Origin: Kiloniellaceae bacterium
GTDB lineage: Bacteria > Pseudomonadota > Alphaproteobacteria > Kiloniellales > J153
Direction of reading: 5' to 3'
Assembly: GCA_021776115.1 (NCBI GenBank)
Contig: JAJFGN010000070.1
Coordinates: 1 to 64,000, forward strand
Length of the DNA: 64,000 bases
Part shown: positions 3,388-46,330 of the stretch, piece after piece
How positions within the stretch are numbered: position 1 is the stretch's first letter
How the letters are laid out: every line of letters starts with the position of its first letter
Translations under genes and position numbers: made by a program
Notes under the pieces: generated by a model
Told to the model about the DNA's origin: nothing
What the model saw: the letters and a program-made list of their open reading frames with translations, nothing else
Databases searched by the model: none

Positions 3388-3388
3388 C

Positions 3389-3411
3389 TAGTGACGTGGA
3401 ACAGAAGTTCG
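3389..3411 (+). repeat. Short dispersed repeat after the mutS stop
   Basis: A block containing CTAGTG and GTGGAACAGAA starts directly after the mutS stop. Nearly the same block sits at the hemerythrin stop (45457-45479). The two agree at about 19 of 23 positions by eye. It adjoins the palindromic element at 3427-3564. Confidence 0.45.
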
Positions 3412-3426
3412 CACGCTGATTCATTG

Positions 3427-3564
3427 CCGTCATCCCGGACTTGATCCGGGATCCATGGTTCCGCCTGTCCGACTGGATCCCGGATCGCTGACTTTCCTTA
3501 CCAAATCAGACCCTCGCTTTCGCGAGGGCATGGATTTGGAGGAAAGTCGCGTCCGGGATGACGG
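3427..3564. repeat. Three-way-junction palindromic element C (138 bp)
   Basis: Closing arms CCGTCATCCCGGAC (3427-3440) and its exact complement GTCCGGGATGACGG (3551-3564) enclose two hairpins. Hairpin 1 pairs GATCCGGGATCCA (3443-3455) with 3474-3486, 13 of 13. Hairpin 2 is interrupted: GACTTTCC (3490-3497) with 3541-3548, CCAAATC (3501-3507) with 3533-3539, and CCCTCG (3511-3516) with 3523-3528. The right half is coding: it provides the end of the convergent molybdopterin oxidoreductase gene. The GTCATCCCGG core recurs at 56271 and 63610. Confidence 0.85.
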
Positions 3565-12770: not shown

Positions 12771-12983
12771 TTTGGCGTTCATGCCCCTGACCCGACAAGC
12801 GGGGCCGTAAATTGACGGGACGGCGAATACTTTTTCGTGATTTAGCCGAAATGACGCCGGTAAAGCATTGGCGCAGTGGCGATTTGCCGCTAATGTTTTG
12901 TTTCTAGTGACCAAGCCGCCAAGACTATTGTAGTCCTCGCACCTTGCCGCGAAGCCGCGCCATGCACCCTGCGTCCGTTGTCT
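12771..12983. other. Intergenic region after trpS
   Basis: Somewhat AT-richer than its surroundings. I see no ORF, clear terminator or promoter here; the 262 bp palindromic element begins at 12984. Confidence 0.5.
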
Positions 12984-13245
12984 AATACCAAGTCTCGATG
13001 ATAATGACCCATTTGACCGTGTCCTTTTCCCCCCTGGTTAGGCGCGCTTCGGGCCGTGGTGCGGGCACCACAAGCGGAGCGCAACGCGGCCAGGGGGGAA
13101 AAGAACGCGGCCTTCGGTGGCGATCCACGGCCGCCTGGGGGCGTTGCGGCGCTTGCCCGATGCCCCGCATCGCGCCGCGCGCCGCGCCTGCCCAGGCGGC
13201 CTTGGATCGCCATCAAATGGGTCATTATCATCGAGATTTGGTATT
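12984..13245. repeat. Three-way-junction palindromic element A (262 bp)
   Basis: Terminal arms of 33 bp (12984-13016 and 13213-13245) are inverted copies with one mismatch; the outer end reads AATACCAA. Inside are two hairpins. Hairpin 1 pairs CTTTTCCCCCCTGG (13024-13037) with 13090-13103, 14 of 14, around a central GTGGTGC-GG-GCACCAC. Hairpin 2 pairs 13119-13139 with 13191-13211, 20 of 21. No ORF of quality lies inside, so this is not an autonomous IS. It ends 19 bp before the TauE-family start codon, so it forms part of that gene's leader. Confidence 0.85.
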
Positions 13246-13264
13246 GGAAGCCTGATCCCCGGCG

Positions 13265-14179
13265 ATGCAAATCTACCTGCCCATCGCCGAGATGTCGGTC
13301 AACGTCTTTTTACTTCTCGGCATGGGCGGGGCAATCGGGTTCCTCTCCGGATTATTCGGGGTCGGCGGCGGGTTCTTGATGACGCCGCTCTTGATCTTTA
13401 TCGGTGTGCCGCCCGCCGTTGCCGTCGCCACCGAAGCGAACCAGATCGTTGCGTCTTCGGTCTCCGGCGTTCTCGCGCACTGGCGGCGCGGCAACGTCGA
13501 TTTCAAGATGGGCCTGATCCTCTTGATCGGCGGTATCGCCGGATCGACCTTCGGCGTCGGGCTGTTTTCCGTGCTTCGCGGTTTGGGCCAGATCGACCTG
13601 GTCATCTCGCTGTCTTACGTCGTCTTCCTGGGCATCATCGGGACGCTGATGCTGGTGGAAAGCCTACGCTCGATGCGCCAACGCAAGGTGTCGGCGGGGC
13701 AGCCGCGCAAGCTGCATCAGCACACCTGGATTCACGGCTTACCGCTAAAGACGCGTTTTCGCCGCTCCAAGCTCTATATCTCGGCGCTCTTGCCTTTCGC
13801 GATCGGTTTCCTGGTTGGCGTCCTGGCCGCGATCATGGGTGTCGGCGGCGGTTTCATCATGGTACCGGCGATGATCTACCTGCTCGGCATGCCGACCTCG
13901 GTGGTGATCGGCACGTCGTTGTTCCAGATCATCTTCGTGACCGCCAACGTCACTTTCTTGCAGGCCTATGCCAATCAAACCGTCGACGTGGTTCTGGCGC
14001 TTCTGCTCCTGACCGGGGCGGTGATCGGGGCCCAGTTCGGCGCCCGTGCCGGGGCGCGGCTGCATGGCGAGCAATTGCGCGGCCTGCTCGCGGCCATGGT
14101 TTTACTGGTGTGCAGCAAGCTGTTTTACGATCTGCTGGTCACCCCGGCCGATTTGTACTCTCTGGGGGTGGCGCTCTGA
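13265..14179 (+). CDS. TauE/SafE (TSUP) family membrane permease
   Basis: 304 residues, about eight hydrophobic segments, with the family's internal duplication visible as GLFGVGGGFLMTPLL (residues about 29-43) and AIMGVGGGFIMVPAM near 197-211. TSUP proteins export or import sulfite, sulfonates or other organosulfur anions; the substrate here is not shown by the sequence. A long cytoplasmic loop (about residues 135-170, with RKLHQHTWIHGLPLKTRFRR) separates the halves. The start codon of the following TIGR02186 protein overlaps its stop (TGATG), so the two are translationally coupled. Its leader contains palindromic element A. Confidence 0.88.
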   Translation: MQIYLPIAEMSVNVFLLLGMGGAIGFLSGLFGVGGGFLMTPLLIFIGVPPAVAVATEANQIVASSVSGVLAHWRRGNVDFKMGLILLIGGIAGSTFGVGLFSVLRGLGQIDLVISLSYVVFLGIIGTLMLVESLRSMRQRKVSAGQPRKLHQHTWIHGLPLKTRFRRSKLYISALLPFAIGFLVGVLAAIMGVGGGFIMVPAMIYLLGMPTSVVIGTSLFQIIFVTANVTFLQAYANQTVDVVLALLLLTGAVIGAQFGARAGARLHGEQLRGLLAAMVLLVCSKLFYDLLVTPADLYSLGVAL

Positions 14180-14943
14180 TGTCGGCTGGGACCCGGTGTG
14201 CGAGCAGACTTGCTTGCGCCGCCGCTTTCTTGGTGCTTTCCGGGGCCGCGAACGCGGCACAGGCCCAATCCCTGGTTGCCGATCTGTCGAAGCGCTTGGT
14301 CGCGATCACCACCGGTTTCGTGGGCACGGACGTCCTGTTGTTCGGCGCGGTCGAGGGTGAGGGCGATATTGTCATCGTGGTGCGCGGACCGGACCGGCCC
14401 GTGACCATGTATCGAAAGAGCCGGGTTTTGGGTATCTGGGCCAATACGGCGCAAATGACTTTCGAACGCGCCCCCAGCTTCTATGCCATCGCAACCTCGA
14501 AGCCGATCCGGGAAATCGCCCCGGACGTCGTACGAGCGCGCCACGAGATGGGGGTCGACGCGCTGCGCCTGGATCTTCCCGCGGCCAAGGCCTCGCGCAA
14601 TGTCGCTCGCGACTGGCGTCAGGGCCTGATTCGCAATTTTCAAAAGAGCGGTCTCTACGGCCACGAAGTCGGTTCGGTCACATTTCTGGGCAACCAGTTG
14701 TTTCGGGTGGAGCTGCACTTGCCGGCCAATGTGCCGACGGGCGCCTATCAGGTGATCACGTATTTGCTCAAGGACGGTCATGTCGCTTCGGCGCAAACCA
14801 TGCCTTTGTTTGTCAGCAAAATCGGCGCTGAAGCCGCCATTTTCGATTTTGCGACCCGGTATTCCGCCTATTACGGCTTGATTGCGATTGTCATCGCATT
14901 GATGGCAGGATGGCTTGCCCATCTGGCATTCCGTAAGGGCTGA
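14179..14943 (+). CDS. TIGR02186 / Alph_Pro_TM family membrane protein
   Basis: 254 residues. A signal peptide (cleavage likely after ANAAQAQ) leads into a periplasmic domain beginning LVADLSKRLVAITTGFVGTDVLLFGAVEGEGDIVIVVRGP, the hallmark of this alphaproteobacterial family. One C-terminal membrane helix (GLIAIVIALMAGWLAHLAF) ends the protein. The family is known to sit beside TauE/SafE permeases, as here with overlapping stop and start, which suggests an accessory subunit. The biochemical role is not known. The ATG at 14179 is the only start that gives a signal peptide. Confidence 0.85.
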   Translation: MSAGTRCASRLACAAAFLVLSGAANAAQAQSLVADLSKRLVAITTGFVGTDVLLFGAVEGEGDIVIVVRGPDRPVTMYRKSRVLGIWANTAQMTFERAPSFYAIATSKPIREIAPDVVRARHEMGVDALRLDLPAAKASRNVARDWRQGLIRNFQKSGLYGHEVGSVTFLGNQLFRVELHLPANVPTGAYQVITYLLKDGHVASAQTMPLFVSKIGAEAAIFDFATRYSAYYGLIAIVIALMAGWLAHLAFRKG

Positions 14944-14957
14944 ACAGGTTTTGCGCC

Positions 14958-15464
14958 ATGAGTGATGAGGCTACCGGTCCGGGCGACGAGCAGACACGGC
15001 CCGCCGACCGCATTTTCCTTGTCGTGGTCGACGAGACCGAGGAAATGCGCGTCGCCTTGCGTTTCGCGTGCCGCCGGGCACGGAACACGGGCGGCCGGGT
15101 CGCCCTGCTTTATGTGATCGAACCGGCCGATTTCCAGCATTGGCAGGCGGTCGGCGATTTGATGCGCGAGGAAGCGCGCAGCGAGGGCGAACAGTTACTG
15201 CAAAAGCTAGCCGCACAGGTCAACGAGTTGGTTGGCAATATTCCGGTTCTCTTTGTGCGCGAGGGCAAGGTAAACGACGAACTCTTTAAGTTGCTCGAAG
15301 AGGAACCCAGCATTTCGATTCTAGTTCTGGGCGCCAACACGGGGACGCGTGGCCCCGGGCCCTTGGTAACCGCCTTGACTGGAAAAATGGTTGGCAAGCT
15401 TCGTGTGCCGATGACCATCGTGCCGGGAAATCTCAGCGACGAAGCCGTGGACTCCATTTCTTAG
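14958..15464 (+). CDS. Universal stress protein (UspA family)
   Basis: 168 residues with the Usp alpha/beta fold: IFLVVVDETEEMRVALRFACRRARNTGGRVALLYVIEP at the N-terminus and the C-terminal ISILVLGANTGTRGPGPLVTALTGKMVGKLRVPMTIVPG. The G-x2-G-x9-G-type ATP loop is only partly kept (GANTGTRGPGPLVTAL), so nucleotide binding is uncertain. It starts 14 bp after the Alph_Pro_TM gene and is probably cotranscribed with it and the permease. It is convergent with ubiB. Confidence 0.85.
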   Translation: MSDEATGPGDEQTRPADRIFLVVVDETEEMRVALRFACRRARNTGGRVALLYVIEPADFQHWQAVGDLMREEARSEGEQLLQKLAAQVNELVGNIPVLFVREGKVNDELFKLLEEEPSISILVLGANTGTRGPGPLVTALTGKMVGKLRVPMTIVPGNLSDEAVDSIS

Positions 15465-15484
15465 CGCGTGTCTTCGAGCCAGCC

Positions 15485-17065
15485 TCACATGGCCACGAAA
15501 AGCCCCAGCCCCAGCCCCAGAACCGCGACCGCCAGCCACAGCGCGCGAATATGCCAGGACTGACCGTTAGCCGGCCGGTGCAGGACCTCCAACGAATCAG
15601 GGTGTAATCGCAGGCCGTGGGCGCTCAGGGTTTCGGCAGCCGCCTCGACCTTACCGACCAAGCCCGGCAGACGTTCCAGGGCGCTCGTCAGTTCCTCGGC
15701 CGCGCGCCGTACCCGCGCCTCGGGGCCGCGGGTCGCCCGCATCCAATCTTCGATCAAGGGTTCGGCCAGGGTCCATATGTTGAGCGTGGAATCCAGGCGC
15801 CGGCTGACCCCCTCGGCCATCATCATGTTCTTCTGCAGAAGCAGAAGCTGCGGTTGTACCGGCATGTTGAAGGCCTCGCTCAAGCGTAACAGGCGCGCGA
15901 GCAGGCGGGCGAAGGAAATCTCCTCCAATGGCCGGTCGAAGATTGGCTCCGAGACGGATCGAAGCGCCTGCGCGAAGACGTCCAGAGACTCACCCGGCGG
16001 CAAATATCCGGCTTCCACATGGACTTCCGCCAAGCGTTTGTAGTCGCGCGCCAGTTGGGCGAGCAGCATGTCGGCAAGAAACGTGCGGGTTTGCCGGTCC
16101 AGGCGGCCCATGATGCCGAAATCGACCGCGACGATGTTGCCGTGCGAATCGACAAACATGTTGCCGGGGTGCTGATCGCCATGGAAAAAGCCATCCCGGA
16201 ACACTTGGTTGAAAAAAATCGCCGCCGCCTTTTTAAGCACCTCGGTCAGGTCTAGTCCGGCGGCCGACAGGGCCACGCGGTCGTCGATACGGATACCGCT
16301 AATCCGGTCCATGGTTAGAACCCGGCGCGACGTGCGCCGCCAATCGATGGGCGGCGTGCGGTAGGTCGGGTCGCCCTCGAAATTGTCGGCGAGTTCCGAT
16401 GCCGCGGCTGCCTCCATCGCCAGATCCATCTCGATACCGGCGATTTCCTCGAATTCCTGCACGACGGCGAGGGGCTTGAAGCGGCGCAGGCGCGGTTGCG
16501 TGCGCTCGGCCATCTGGGCCAGCCAGTAAAATACGGCGAGGTCGCGCTCGAAGGCGCGTTCGATGCCGGGGCGCAGGATCTTGACCGCGACTTCACGGCC
16601 CGCCGCGCTATCGGCGTCGTCGTCTTCCTCCTTTGTGACCGCGAAATGCACCTGGGATATGGAGGCCGCCGAAATTGGGGCCGCTTCGAAGCTGGCGAAC
16701 AGAGCCTCCACGGTTTGGCCGAGCTCCGCCTCGACGGTGGCGCGGGCCTCGGCGCCCGCGAATGGCGGCAGGCGATCCTGAAGCTCGGCCAGATCGGCGG
16801 CCATCTGCTCGCCCAGGAGGTCGGCACGGGTCGACAGAAACTGGCCCAGCTTTATGAAGACCGGACCCAATTCGATCAGTGCGCGGGCCAGCTTCTGCCC
16901 AGGCCGGCCTTCGACCTGGCGGCGGGCGGGCCAACGGACCAGCCACGTCAGGCTTGGCGCCAGGCGCAACTCCTCGATAACCGCCAAGGCGTCGTGGCGG
17001 GCCAGGGTACGCCCGATCGCGATCAGCCGGAGTACAATACGAAAGGTGCGGATCATATTCGCCAA
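15485..17065 (-). CDS. ubiB: Ubiquinone biosynthesis ATPase/kinase-like UbiB
   Basis: UbiB is an atypical protein-kinase-like ATPase needed for coenzyme Q synthesis at the inner membrane. 526 residues. The diagnostic KxGQ motif is in ELGPVFIKLGQFLSTRADLL; the catalytic loop is FRDGFFHGDQHPGNMFVD and the metal loop AVDFGIMGRLD. A short acidic insertion (KEEDDDADSAAGRE) interrupts the beta-strand before the AVKILRPG lysine motif. The C-terminal end is one hydrophobic helix (LWLAVAVLGLGLGLFVAM). Its start overlaps the end of ubiE by 13 bp, an operon arrangement that fits one pathway. Confidence 0.93.
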   Translation of the reverse strand: MANMIRTFRIVLRLIAIGRTLARHDALAVIEELRLAPSLTWLVRWPARRQVEGRPGQKLARALIELGPVFIKLGQFLSTRADLLGEQMAADLAELQDRLPPFAGAEARATVEAELGQTVEALFASFEAAPISAASISQVHFAVTKEEDDDADSAAGREVAVKILRPGIERAFERDLAVFYWLAQMAERTQPRLRRFKPLAVVQEFEEIAGIEMDLAMEAAAASELADNFEGDPTYRTPPIDWRRTSRRVLTMDRISGIRIDDRVALSAAGLDLTEVLKKAAAIFFNQVFRDGFFHGDQHPGNMFVDSHGNIVAVDFGIMGRLDRQTRTFLADMLLAQLARDYKRLAEVHVEAGYLPPGESLDVFAQALRSVSEPIFDRPLEEISFARLLARLLRLSEAFNMPVQPQLLLLQKNMMMAEGVSRRLDSTLNIWTLAEPLIEDWMRATRGPEARVRRAAEELTSALERLPGLVGKVEAAAETLSAHGLRLHPDSLEVLHRPANGQSWHIRALWLAVAVLGLGLGLFVAM

Positions 17066-17877
17066 GCGGAATGCAGGGCCGCGATTCCGCCACTCAAATT
17101 ACGGTAACGCACCTGGTCGAGGCCGGCTTCACGAATTAATGCGGCCAGGTCTTCCTGCGCCGGAAAGCGGCGGATGCTTTCGGCAAGATATTGATAAGCG
17201 GCCGCGTCACCGGCCACTCGGGCGCCCAGGCCGGGCAGCACCTTGAAGGAATAAAGGTCGTAGAGCCGCGAAAGGGTGGGCAGGACCACATGGCTGAATT
17301 CCAGGCAAAGGAAGCGGCCGCCGGGCTTGAGAACGCGCCGCGCCTCGCTCAAGGCTTTCTCGATGCGGGTCACGTTGCGCAAGCCGAAGGCGATCGTGTA
17401 GGCATCGACCGCGCGGTCCGGTAACGGCAAGTCTTGCGCATCGCCGCACACCCAGTACAGCCCGTTCGGGCAGGCCGTCCCCAACAAGCCCCGGTCATGC
17501 GCCCGCACCCGGCCGACTTCCAGCATGTCGGGTGTAAGATCGCAAACGACGATGGGTCCGGCCTGGGCGGCGCCGACCCGCTCCAGGACGCGCAGCGGGA
17601 TATCTCCGGTGCCGCCTGCCACGTCTAGGAGGCGCAAGCCCGGGCGTGGATCGAGCCAATCGATCAAGGCCCGTTTCCATAAGCGATGGATGCCGCCGGA
17701 CATCAGATCGTTCATCAGGTCGTAGCGTGTCGCGACGCTTTCGAACACGCCGCGCACCCTGGGCGCTTTCTCGGATTCCGCGATTTCCTCGAAGCCGAAG
17801 TGCGTGGTCGCAGCGGCGGCACTTTGGGGCTTTGAGGCGCGTTCGGTATGGCGGTTCTGCGGCATGCGCTGGACCAT
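17053..17877 (-). CDS. ubiE: Demethylmenaquinone/2-methoxy-benzoquinol methyltransferase UbiE
   Basis: An S-adenosylmethionine-dependent C-methyltransferase of ubiquinone (and menaquinone) synthesis. 274 residues. Family marks: FESVATRYDLMNDLMSGGIHRLWK, SAM-binding LLDVAGGTGDIPLRVL, AFGLRNVTRIEKALSEARRVLKPGG and a C-terminal SGGIAALHSAWRI. About 25 residues before HFGFEEI are low in complexity and variable, so the start could also be Met5. It is divergent from mutM with about 38 bp between the start codons, and overlaps ubiB downstream. Confidence 0.95.
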   Translation of the reverse strand: MVQRMPQNRHTERASKPQSAAAATTHFGFEEIAESEKAPRVRGVFESVATRYDLMNDLMSGGIHRLWKRALIDWLDPRPGLRLLDVAGGTGDIPLRVLERVGAAQAGPIVVCDLTPDMLEVGRVRAHDRGLLGTACPNGLYWVCGDAQDLPLPDRAVDAYTIAFGLRNVTRIEKALSEARRVLKPGGRFLCLEFSHVVLPTLSRLYDLYSFKVLPGLGARVAGDAAAYQYLAESIRRFPAQEDLAALIREAGLDQVRYRNLSGGIAALHSAWRI

Positions 17878-17915
17878 AGCGTGCCGTCCGGCTTCGCGCT
17901 ACTCTCCGTCCCGAT

Positions 17916-18770
17916 ATGCCGGAGCTTCCTGAAGTTGAAACCGTGATTCGCGGCCTGCGCCCGCGATTGGAGGGAGTGCGCCTGTCGCGGGTGGTGCAGC
18001 GCCGGGCCGATCTGCGTTTGCCCTTGCCGGAGAATTTTGCCGCCCGGTTGGAAGGGCGCCGCGTCACGCGCTTGGCGCGGCGTGCGAAGTACATCCTGAT
18101 TCATCTCGACGATCGTCAAGTCCTCCTCTGTCACCTCGGCATGTCGGGGCGTATGACGGTTTCCGGGGCCGAGGCGGGGGCAGAGCGCGAGCCGCCCGGT
18201 CCGCATGACCATGTGATCTTGACCACGGAGCGCGGCGACGAGATCCGCTTCAATGACGCGCGCCGCTTCGGTGTCATGGATTTGGTCGATGCTGAGCGCC
18301 TGGAACAACACCGCCTTCTCGCGGGTCTTGGGCCCGAACCCTTGGGCAATGAATTCTCCGGTCCCGAGCTGGCGCGCCGCCTGGCCGGCAAGCGCTCACC
18401 GATCAAAGCCGCACTCCTCGATCAGCGCGTGGTCGCGGGGCTCGGCAACATTTACGTCTCCGAGAGTCTTTTTTTTGCCGGTATCTCCCCGCGCCGCGCC
18501 GCGCGCAGTGTGCAAGGGGACCGGGCCGAGCGCCTGGCGGCTGCCATCCGTGACGTTCTCACACGCGCGATTCAGGCTGGCGGATCGTCCCTGCGCGACT
18601 ATGTGCAGGCCTCGGGCGAGCTTGGCTACTTTCAGCATGAATGGGCGGTTTATGGGCGCGAGGGGCAGGCCTGCCCAGGCTGCACCTGTGGTCTCAAGGG
18701 CCCCGGCGGTATCCGGCGCATCGTTCAATCCAACCGCGCGACTTTTTATTGTGGCACCCGCCAAAGGTAA
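17916..18770 (+). CDS. mutM: Formamidopyrimidine-DNA glycosylase MutM (Fpg)
   Basis: A bifunctional glycosylase/AP lyase that removes 8-oxoguanine and formamidopyrimidines. 284 residues. The N-terminal MPELPEVET supplies the catalytic Pro2 and Glu3; Lys in RRAKYILI and the helix-two-turn-helix [20 protein letters not shown] are intact. The C-terminal zinc finger is atypical: [10 protein letters not shown] has three Cys in a row, but the last pair reads FYCGTRQR instead of FYC-x2-CQR, so the fourth usual ligand is Arg. The extra Cys in CPGCTC might replace it (inference). Palindromic element B starts 4 bp after the stop. Confidence 0.93.
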
Positions 18771-18774
18771 GTAG

Positions 18775-19035
18775 TGGATAGAATCCAACATATGACGCCC
18801 CTACGATCCCATATCCCGGTTTCTCGGCAGGAGAAGGCCCGCGGGCGATGCCGAAGCATCGTCGAGGGTCTTCGGCGCACCGAGAAACCGGGATATGGGA
18901 CCCGAAGGGCGGCTTCGCGCGCTCACCGGCCACGTTGCGCGACACTTGTGATGGCTGGCATCACGGCGTATCGCGCGCCTTGCCGGGTGAACTCGCGAAG
19001 CCGTCGTAGGGGCGTCATATGTTGGATTCTATCCA
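18775..19035. repeat. Three-way-junction palindromic element B (261 bp)
   Basis: Perfect 32 bp terminal inverted repeat at 18775-18806 and 19004-19035, with outer end TGGATAGAATCCA, itself a small palindrome. Inside are two hairpins that abut the arms. Hairpin 1: 18807-18827 with 18880-18900, 21 of 21. Hairpin 2: CGGCTTCGCG (18910-18919) with 18994-19003, 10 of 10, with further partial pairing inward. No credible ORF. It separates mutM from the secreted-protein gene, whose start codon is 14 bp beyond the right end. Confidence 0.88.
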
Positions 19036-19049
19036 TCAACACAGCCGCG

Positions 19050-44883: not shown

Positions 44884-45459
44884 ATGACAGACGCGGTGCA
44901 GAGGGGCAGGACCGCGCCCGAGGCAATCCAGATTCTTTGGCGTGAGCACGCCAATATCTCTCGCGTCCTGACCTGCCTGGAAGATCTGGTGAGCGATGCC
45001 GCCGCACCGCTCGAGATGGATCGGCTGCGCGCGATTTTCGATTACATGGAAGGTTTCGCCGATACCCTCCATCACCCGAAGGAAGAGCATTATCTTTTGC
45101 CCGCTCTCGTCCGGCGGAAGCCGGATCTTGCGCTCCTCGTCCAGAAAATCCAAGAGGAGCACGACGAGAGCGCGGCTGTGATGACCGATCTTCGGCGCAG
45201 TTTCGAAGCCTGCCGGCGCGACCCTGGCGCCGCGCCTCATTTTCGCGCCCTGGCCAAGGACTATGTCGATTTTCAGCGCCGCCACATGATGCGCGAGGAT
45301 CAAGGTCTCTTGCCGGTGGCGCTGGAGGTATTGACCGATGCGGACATGGACGCCCTCAACCAGGCTTTTACCCGCGCCGAGGACCCCTTGATCGGGGCGG
45401 AGCACCAGGGCGAGTTTCAGCGCCTTTTCGACGCCATCGTCTCGGACTCGCCGCCCTAG
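44884..45459 (+). CDS. Hemerythrin HHE-domain protein
   Basis: 191 residues, a four-helix hemerythrin-type protein. Candidate di-iron ligands: His22 in WREHANIS, His63/His64 and Glu67 or Glu68 in TLHHPKEEHYLLP, His69, the EEHDESA motif in helix 3 and HMMREDQGLLPVA in helix 4. Roles in this family include oxygen binding, sensing and iron-sulfur repair; which applies here is not clear. A repeat block begins at its stop, and the ABC-exporter genes are convergent. Confidence 0.85.
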   Translation: MTDAVQRGRTAPEAIQILWREHANISRVLTCLEDLVSDAAAPLEMDRLRAIFDYMEGFADTLHHPKEEHYLLPALVRRKPDLALLVQKIQEEHDESAAVMTDLRRSFEACRRDPGAAPHFRALAKDYVDFQRRHMMREDQGLLPVALEVLTDADMDALNQAFTRAEDPLIGAEHQGEFQRLFDAIVSDSPP

Positions 45460-45479
45460 TGTGGTGGAACAGAAATGCG
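45457..45479 (+). repeat. Short dispersed repeat at the hemerythrin stop
   Basis: CTAGTG then GTGGAACAGAA; matches the block after the mutS stop (3389-3411) at about 19 of 23 positions. It covers most of the 25 bp between the two convergent stop codons. Confidence 0.45.
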
Positions 45480-45484
45480 TGTTT

Positions 45485-46330
45485 CTACTCGCCGACCTGC
45501 AGCAAGAGGCCGCGCCGCCGCGCGACGTGAAAGGCGTAGAGGAATAAGCCGGCCCCGATAGCCAAGTAGACCAGGACAAGTCCAAAACCATGGGCCAAGA
45601 GGTCGAAGCGTATCGTGCCGTCTATGAGAATGGCGCGCATGCCCTCGAACACCGGGGCGCTGGGCAAGGTCCAAGCCACGATCTGAAGCCACTCCGGCAA
45701 AACCGAAACCGGGTAGTAAATAGCGCTAACCGGCGCGATCAGAAAGATCGCCAGCCAGGCCACGCTTTCCGCGCCTTGGCCTACCCGCAAAATCAAGGCG
45801 CACACCATCATCCCGATCGCCCAACCGAATATCAAAAGAATGGCGAAGAAGCCGATTAACGGCAAGCCGAGGTCGAAAAGGTTCGCTTTATAGAACACGA
45901 TTGCTAGGCCGGCCGCCGGCAACACGCCGATCAAGGTCCGCAGCAAGCTCATGGCCATCAGCGACAACAGGAATTCGCTTGGACGCAGGGGGCTGACCGA
46001 TAGGTTGCCCAGGTTGCGCGACCAGACTTCCTCCAGGAACGATAGGCTGAAGCCGAGTTGGCCCCGGAACAAAACATCCCACAACAGAACCGCGGAAATC
46101 AGCAATCCCGCGGCCTGCGCGATGTAAGAGCTGTTGGTCAGCAGGAAGCGTGTGATGAAACCCCAGAGGATCATCTGAATGGTCGGCCAATACATCAGCT
46201 CGAAAATACGCGGCCACGAGGTACGCATCAGATAAACGTGACGAAGGACCATCGCGGCGATCCGCGATAGTGCGCGGCTAACGGCACCCGGCGTCGCGGG
46301 CGCTGCGATGTTTGCGGTGTTGTCGCTCAT
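45485..46330 (-). CDS. ABC-2 type transporter permease
   Basis: 281 residues, about six hydrophobic segments, of the ABC-2 family used to export polysaccharides, lipids or drugs. Its start ATG 46330 overlaps the preceding ATPase stop by four bases, so the two form one exporter. A polar N-terminus is followed by LRHVYLMRTSWPRIFELMYWPTIQMILWGF, LSFLEEVWSRNLGNLSVSPLRPSEFLLSL and VSAIYYPVSVLPEWLQ, which are typical of the NodJ/ABC-2 branch. The substrate is not evident. Confidence 0.88.
   Translation of the reverse strand: MSDNTANIAAPATPGAVSRALSRIAAMVLRHVYLMRTSWPRIFELMYWPTIQMILWGFITRFLLTNSSYIAQAAGLLISAVLLWDVLFRGQLGFSLSFLEEVWSRNLGNLSVSPLRPSEFLLSLMAMSLLRTLIGVLPAAGLAIVFYKANLFDLGLPLIGFFAILLIFGWAIGMMVCALILRVGQGAESVAWLAIFLIAPVSAIYYPVSVLPEWLQIVAWTLPSAPVFEGMRAILIDGTIRFDLLAHGFGLVLVYLAIGAGLFLYAFHVARRRGLLLQVGE

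Follow-up and report, generated by a model that had tools for sequence, protein, structure and literature searches.

The 64,000-nucleotide stretch analysed here (hereafter, the window: positions 1 to 64,000 of contig JAJFGN010000070.1, assembly GCA_021776115.1, from a Kiloniellaceae bacterium) contains two short elements, A (12984-13245) and B (18775-19035), which stand at the top of its inverted-repeat list (arms of at least 18, spacing of at most 600). The arms of A (12981-13016 and 13213-13248) are 94% complementary and lie 196 nt apart, while those of B (18775-18806 and 19004-19035) are 100% complementary, with a spacing of 197 nt. Both elements are predicted to fold into one closing stem and two large hairpins, with RNA fold z-scores of -16.8 for A and -17.0 for B, and none of 200 shuffles folded equally well. 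An earlier note on this DNA had described each element as a closing inverted repeat with two internal hairpins, a plan confirmed by the repeat list and by z-scores of about -17. The same note held A and B to be unrelated in sequence, which proved wrong, since a conserved core is common to all four hairpins. The features of both elements are as follows (for hairpins, the strand is the one bearing the core motif):

12983..12985, no strand: left target duplication of A, TAA; the right copy, TTG at 13244-13246, has drifted, and the empty site in genome G002 is CTTAG.
12986..13016, + strand: left terminal inverted repeat of A, TACCAAGTCTCGATGATAATGACCCATTTGA.
13017..13110, + strand: hairpin 1 of A (80.2 bits with the covariance model described below; training sequence).
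13118..13212, - strand: hairpin 2 of A (76.5 bits; training sequence).
13213..13243, - strand: right terminal inverted repeat of A.
18772..18773, no strand: left target of B, TA; the right copy, CA at 19037-19038, has drifted, and the empty site in genome G003 is AAGCTAGACACGG.
18774..18806, + strand: left terminal inverted repeat of B, GTGGATAGAATCCAACATATGACGCCCCTACGA.
18807..18900, + strand: hairpin 1 of B (56.1 bits; training sequence).
18910..19003, - strand: hairpin 2 of B (65.4 bits; training sequence).
19004..19036, - strand: right terminal inverted repeat of B, whose final base (19036) mismatches the left end.

A and B represent a single family of mobile elements, short, non-autonomous and widespread, of the kind known as miniature inverted-repeat transposable elements (MITEs). 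Each element contains, as its two inner hairpins, a single unit of about 95 nt repeated in inverted orientation; A and B have this unit in common, and the hairpins of 15 elements (the second one reverse-complemented) align on a single core. The consensus of this core reads GG-Y-A-G-G-(A/C)-G on the 5' side, followed by a short inner stem-loop and by (G/A)-A-C-G on the 3' side, few positions being free of exceptions. A covariance model, built from 29 units after excluding L016_h1 because of an internal deletion, recovers all four hairpins of A and B in a search of the window, with E-values (which are rough for this model) from 1e-12 to 4e-19. These four hairpins are among the training units and their match is by construction, so that the kinship of A and B rests on the unit alignment and on the matches of the model elsewhere. 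Apart from them, the window contains no match to the model better than E 0.04. The window shows no match to Rfam at gathering score, and the elements of A alone and of 13 member loci have none above it either, leaving aside one tRNA elsewhere in L292.

The genome that harbours A and B (4.3 Mb) contains at least 64 units, distributed in 27 inverted pairs and 10 single units (both counted by hand). A BLAST search of this genome with A yields 46 matches, including the match to itself and those on the opposite strand, and the terminal sequence of A, allowing up to three mismatches, occurs 16 times, versus none for the reversed control. When the sites of the A-like matches were read out, they corresponded to elements of equal length and plan. 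The general layout consists of terminal inverted repeats of about 33 bp flanking two inverted hairpin units, with a total length of about 265 bp. Among 60 pairs from this genome and its relatives, 9 have no closing stem that could be used (8 of these lie at contig ends, and 1 has decayed); 49 of the 51 remaining elements measure 260-274 bp, and the other two 220 and 235 bp. The loci from relatives were hand-picked from match lists and do not constitute a random sample, and the 3 weakest of 136 matches were not entered for this measurement. In addition, 28 places were considered that lie mainly in other families of the class; 24 of them close, at lengths of 261-289 bp, and have terminal sequences that differ considerably.

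The spacer between the two units was studied in 80 elements paired by rule, i.e., a forward motif followed by a reverse one, same-strand pairs not being systematically sought. This set comprises the 60 pairs plus 21 typed pairs, minus one duplicate; the duplicates L094 and L095, a partial pair in L203 and a second pair in L183 were not entered. The spacer is 7-11 nt long in 79 of the elements, and the units overlap in the other one. Such a spacer leaves no room for a gene, so the elements encode no transposase of their own, in agreement with the earlier note. A 3-bp mini-hairpin in this linker (73 of 80) was not used as evidence, because, on a rough estimate, chance alone would account for about half in a linker this short.

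The family is dispersed and mobile. In three congeneric genomes (G001, G002 and G003), both flanks of A and of B are present and the element is missing. The break at the site of A is exact in G002, where an empty CTTAG corresponds to the filled C-TAA-[TACC...GGTA]-TTG-G, and that of B is precise to a few bases in both G002 and G003, with an empty CTAG in the latter; the other comparisons leave some 10 bases unaligned, and about 65 at B in G001. The duplications of A and B themselves have drifted and are no longer identical, but elements with TACCAA ends, the end type that is best suited for this test, carry identical TNA triplets on both sides in 14 of 24 cases, versus 1 of 24 for the next outward triplets used as a control. 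In 36 elements with other end types, TA is preceded by C or T in 33 and followed by G or A in all 36, which places it within YTAR. On contig C44 (L034), an element with CTAGTGTGGTGG ends is nested at a CTAG inside a hairpin of another, partly deleted element. The ends thus behave as ordinary terminal inverted repeats with duplications of 2-3 bp, which does not support the idea, put forward in the earlier note, of a transposase that recognises shape.

The unit also extends well beyond the host genome. Because only the best first-look candidates were scored (150 in the own genome, 72 per genome in the relatives and 10 per genome in the class-wide and phylum-wide samples), the following counts are minima; the genomes are draft assemblies. 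The unit appears in at least 33 of 57 genomes of relatives (34 of 58 with the own genome included), representing 13 of 26 genera. With the own genome again included, it is present in at least 46 of 386 genomes of a class-wide sample and in at least 21 of 397 of a phylum-wide one, 9 of which lie outside the class with a best E-value of 1e-8 or weaker. Short-read assemblies probably under-count the family, because contigs end in or beside hairpins, as observed in the own genome (G000) for contigs C6, C22, C26, C28, C52, C54, C56, C61, C62 and C68. Plasmids and phages searched with A gave no match, nor did plasmids searched with one element of another end type, and one exact pattern had 0 matches in viral contigs.

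A lone hairpin that carries the same core and measures about 105 bp has been found in Oscillospiraceae assemblies (L290, L303, L307, L308, L309, L321, L325, L326 and L329). In L326, direct repeats with TGTCCGAC.ATGC, spaced 51-52 bp, lie ahead of it, and in several other Oscillospiraceae loci the core hairpin comes after TGTCCGA tracts of a similar kind; its neighbours in L326 and L303 resemble ordinary genes of the chromosome. A different case is the contig start L205:1-140 (G238), which contains one long core hairpin with no second hairpin and with arms that run straight into the flanks.

Selection acts on the interior hairpins in their folded, single-stranded form, on the strand that bears the motif. 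RNAalifold detects double-sided changes in 19 of 22 consensus pairs of the 29 units, but its structure covers only part of the outer stem, and the stems were therefore recounted on an alignment of 153 units (160 minus 7 short ones). On the motif strand, the 19 stem column pairs of this alignment contain 206 G.T/T.G against 36 A.C/C.A combinations, the inner stems alone 135 against 7, and 81 against 11 remain after dropping units more than 80% alike; the binomial p-values of these comparisons ignore relatedness, which inflates the cell counts. An independent count of the outer stem in 143 units (17 of the 160 were skipped, with fewer than 14 of 20 positions paired or because of their length) gives 200 G.T versus 47 A.C, mostly with T on the 5' side (184). 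The excess is alike in hairpin 1 (101:19) and hairpin 2 (105:17) despite their location on opposite strands, which excludes a mutational strand bias. In contrast, the closing stem shows only 65 G.T versus 43 A.C (5 of 73 elements were dropped for short flanks or weak arms), a ratio nearer to that expected for DNA ends read by an enzyme.

A second line of evidence comes from a coupled non-Watson-Crick pair. Columns 36 and 84 hold either A.G (71 units) or C.A (82 units) in all 153 units without exception, and the same is true for 32 of 32 units outside this alignment (25 C.A and 7 A.G), several of which are sister copies. Pattern-matching units were left out of this second set, as the pattern fixes the letters C and A. 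In another alignment (A2), 4 of 136 units could not be scored at these columns (3 are truncated, and 1 is a weak match on the wrong strand). The best tree requires 9 switches, each of which changes both letters at once. The pair adjoins a mostly conserved G.A, and together they may be a tandem of sheared-type pairs. The compensatory changes, the G.T excess and the coupled pair agree with the suggestion of the earlier note that structure is kept under selection; its other suggestion, a family of non-autonomous mobile elements, is upheld by the further copies in the genome, by orthologous sites that lack A and B and by the target duplications, and hence its two alternatives hold at once. None of the three conditions that the note named as refuting came about.

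As for the enzymes responsible for mobility, IS5-type DDE transposases, similar to those of the IS427 and IS1031 groups, are likely to mobilise these elements in trans. This proposal is based on a shared 19-base end, on the CTAG and TA targets, and on the 2-bp and three-nucleotide sites. An insertion sequence (IS) of 858 bp in L235 (genome G013) encodes a 250-aa IS5-family transposase with domains PF13340 and PF01609, which matches NF033580 at 275 bits (cut-off, 110). In a Hyphomicrobiales assembly, hairpin elements start with CTAGGGCCTGTGGACATTC or a similar sequence; the right end of the L235 IS is identical to the first 19 bases of two of the six elements compared (L323 and L291), and the other four show one or two mismatches. 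Furthermore, IS5 elements with a DUF4096 domain in the own and related genomes often have ends that begin with CTAGG, at CTAG sites. The available part of PMC3281130 describes IS427-group ISs of Paracoccus as 832-865 bp long, with 2-bp duplications and one exception of 4, and a three-nucleotide target site appears in the consulted portion of PMC2516522 as a trait of the IS1031 group. No IS with matching ends was detected for A or for CTAGTGTGGTGG, nor was there one among the IS5 and IS630 loci examined; none was seen for B either, the end of B not having been separately searched as a pattern. DDE_3 transposases of the IS630 type were also considered as autonomous partners, with nothing useful beyond two partial matches in G003.

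Taken together, these data are probably best explained by a MITE-like family mobilised by IS5 enzymes, with exchangeable ends and with interior hairpins selected as a fold, most likely for a role as RNA. IS5-family transposases would read the terminal repeats and not the interior, so that lineages could have exchanged or evolved their ends to fit different transposases while keeping the interior. Approached from either side, the element normally presents its motif-bearing hairpin first (hairpin 1 for the top strand, hairpin 2 for the bottom one); a correctly folded hairpin would therefore come first on whichever strand is transcribed or exposed. A read-through transcript of either strand would display one such hairpin first, as would either strand exposed as single-stranded DNA, and the most likely role of this RNA hairpin would be to bind a host factor, making insertions tolerable or keeping copies of the element alive.

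Several observations weigh against this explanation. Regarding the fold, the 19 column pairs of the wobble count were chosen from the covariation list of the same 153-unit alignment; three of them (41/81, 42/80 and 43/79) account for 94 of the 206 G.T, and the trend is reversed at columns 20/102, with 2 G.T and 11 A.C. Only one of the switches at columns 36/84 lies on a well-supported branch. The head-to-head arrangement is not strict either, as the two units of L331:1041-1316 (G018) share one strand, with the outer stem of the first hairpin in place and its inside inverted, as if flipped. Regarding the mover, the 19-base match joins different hosts (the IS is in G013, the hairpin elements in another genome), the two ends of the L235 IS differ from each other at 3 of 19 positions, and similarity past the 19 bases drops (23 of 33). 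Neither the end of A, with up to three mismatches in the own genome, nor the exact CTAGTGTGGTGGNNC in 9 genomes ever forms a facing pair 1-3 kb apart. The neighbouring genes of 64 elements, based on crude gene calls, are co-directional in 40 cases, divergent in 13 and convergent in 11, close to the 24:8:8 background of the window, which lends no support to a role as a 3' untranslated region or terminator. Finally, two mini elements of the own genome (L019 and L025) keep, by eye, TAA/TAA and TTA/TTA at their ends, although they can be later deletions.

Mini elements consisting of little beyond terminal repeats have been observed at G000:C63:3843 (L019), G000:C74:526 (L025) and G009:C3:188971 (L156), the last one with CTAG at both ends. 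All three are probably deletions across hairpins.

Among the alternatives, the one that best survives assigns the selected fold to single-stranded DNA or to an extruded cruciform. The motif hairpin of each strand would be bound, much as HUH enzymes bind hairpins of repetitive extragenic palindromic (REP) sequences, by a protein, be it the transposase, a further enzyme or a replication factor, that promotes transposition or synapsis of the ends. The two-fold symmetry of the element, with the motif in hairpin 1 on the top strand and in hairpin 2 on the bottom one, would suit a DNA complex, the length is tightly kept (260-274 bp in 49 of 51), and REP-binding enzymes also read strand-specific folds. 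Nevertheless, duplications of TNA and TA are a sign of a DDE enzyme, a type that needs no hairpin, and the 135 G.T versus 7 A.C of the inner stems would exceed what DNA stability alone is expected to produce. Due to the size of this G.T excess, RNA is preferred over DNA with reasonable confidence, and the DNA alternative is considered rather unlikely, although it deserves attention.

A further proposal sees in these sequences multiplied host genes that encode structured RNAs, or multiplied bidirectional terminators, with mobility as an incidental trait. It would account for the strong RNA-like covariation and for the core hairpin found alone in the Oscillospiraceae assemblies. However, the distribution is patchy (46 of 386 genomes), target duplications are present, A and B are missing at orthologous sites (although only these two elements were compared), no bias toward gene 3' ends is observed and no Rfam family was matched, all of which makes this proposal improbable. 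The least probable one, already contradicted by the observations, involves no structural selection, the arms of the palindromes co-changing by template switching during replication and the interior being merely inherited: quasipalindrome correction is a known process, and partly deleted copies and mini elements do occur, as is the case for unstable palindromes, but template switching perfects palindromes by yielding Watson-Crick pairs and could not produce the A.G or C.A of columns 36/84 (185 of 185 units), nor does it explain why unpaired core letters stay while stems change, and it predicts equal numbers of G.T and A.C instead of 206 and 36.

Returning to the RNA role, a bolder version can be put forward only tentatively. 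According to it, the 95-nt hairpin would be an undescribed RNA motif, a stem with an internal loop formed by the coupled G.A and A.G/C.A pairs, that works in either direction of transcription. Different transposable ends would have repeatedly carried it through Alphaproteobacteria, and the presence of the same core alone in Clostridia would imply a widely conserved binding partner.

The elements exhibit the traits of MITEs, as they are non-coding and shorter than about 300 bp, with terminal inverted repeats, multiple dispersed copies, target duplications and empty orthologous sites. Bacterial MITEs are listed in the accessible section of PMC3733652, and an excerpt of a review (PMC10969869) indicates that their transcripts could fold strongly. 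As far as the parts of these sources show, RUP, Correia/NEMIS, ERIC, Nezha and QMITE are also short, non-coding and dispersed, with terminal inverted repeats and short target duplications. Unlike them, the family presented here has many unrelated terminal repeats around one conserved interior of two inverted structured units, a strand-specific fold, a coupled non-Watson-Crick pair and a distribution across a class. It resembles REP sequences and bacterial interspersed mosaic elements, with their REP-associated tyrosine transposases, in its inverted hairpin pairs and strand-specific structure, but its units are of about 95 nt and lie inside terminal repeats with target duplications; moreover, the GTAG tag found at the end of the 20-40 bp REP palindromes could be present in no more than 47 of the 153 units, and inspection of the unit alignments, with no separate test, reveals no constant CGTC at either unit end. 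One end type shares its terminal bases and its targets (TA in CTAG, and three-base sites) with the IS427 and IS1031 groups of the IS5 family, to judge from the portions available on these groups, but the hairpin-pair elements encode no transposase. Nor do the units qualify as integron attC sites: the paired boxes of those sites have the consensus RYYYAAC / GTTRRRY, and GTT is not conserved in columns 29-36 of the alignment of 153 units.

No account of this family was found, either for one terminal string or in the consulted parts of the literature on bacterial MITEs, on Rhodospirillales, Azospirillum and Magnetospirillum, and on palindromic or structured repeats of Alphaproteobacteria, among them passages of PMC10969869, PMC5082802 and PMC2267715. 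As far as these searches show, the kind of element (a bacterial MITE) is known, while its architecture, breadth, exchange of ends and coupled non-standard pair are new. It represents a parasitic DNA element that keeps its fold rather than its sequence, as evidenced by the coupled pair and the strand-specific wobbles, and whose ends have apparently been exchanged between transposase types. The question of why many bacterial MITEs fold strongly becomes directly testable here, since the interior can be mutated apart from the ends, and the answer may expose a hairpin-binding factor. In addition, the family probably accounts for many contig breaks in the assemblies of these bacteria.

The earlier note had included a third element of the window, C (3427-3564), in the same architecture. 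C does form a closing stem with two hairpins (RNA fold z-score of -10.5), but it lacks the core of the 95-nt unit and is a different element, of the CGTC-REP kind. It contains CGTCATCCCGGACTTGATCCGGGATCCA, with a CGTC tag and a CCA tail as in the CGTC REPs described in the portion of PMC3733652 available, and it is preceded at 3388 by a decayed end of the CTAGTGTGGTGGAAC type with 2 mismatches. The corresponding feature is:

3388..3562, + strand: C, a CGTC-tagged REP composite together with a CTAGTGTGGTGGAAC-type end that has decayed; it is of a different kind from A and B and has only an end type in common with some members of their family.

In L178, ends of this type lie on both sides of a CGTC-REP interior. 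The occurrence of one end type with two unrelated interiors, hairpin units in one case and a CGTC REP in the other, fits with ends and interiors being exchangeable.

Ends of the CTAGTGTGGTGG type have been seen beside or around CGTC-tagged REP composites in L178, L170, L166 and L160 and at 3388-3562 of the window. The genome carries 20 exact CTAGTGTGGTGGNNC ends, two pairs of which are hairpin elements. Lastly, at positions 45456-45490 of the window, a CTAGTGTGGTGGAACAGAAAT.CGTG end stands alone, with no partner.

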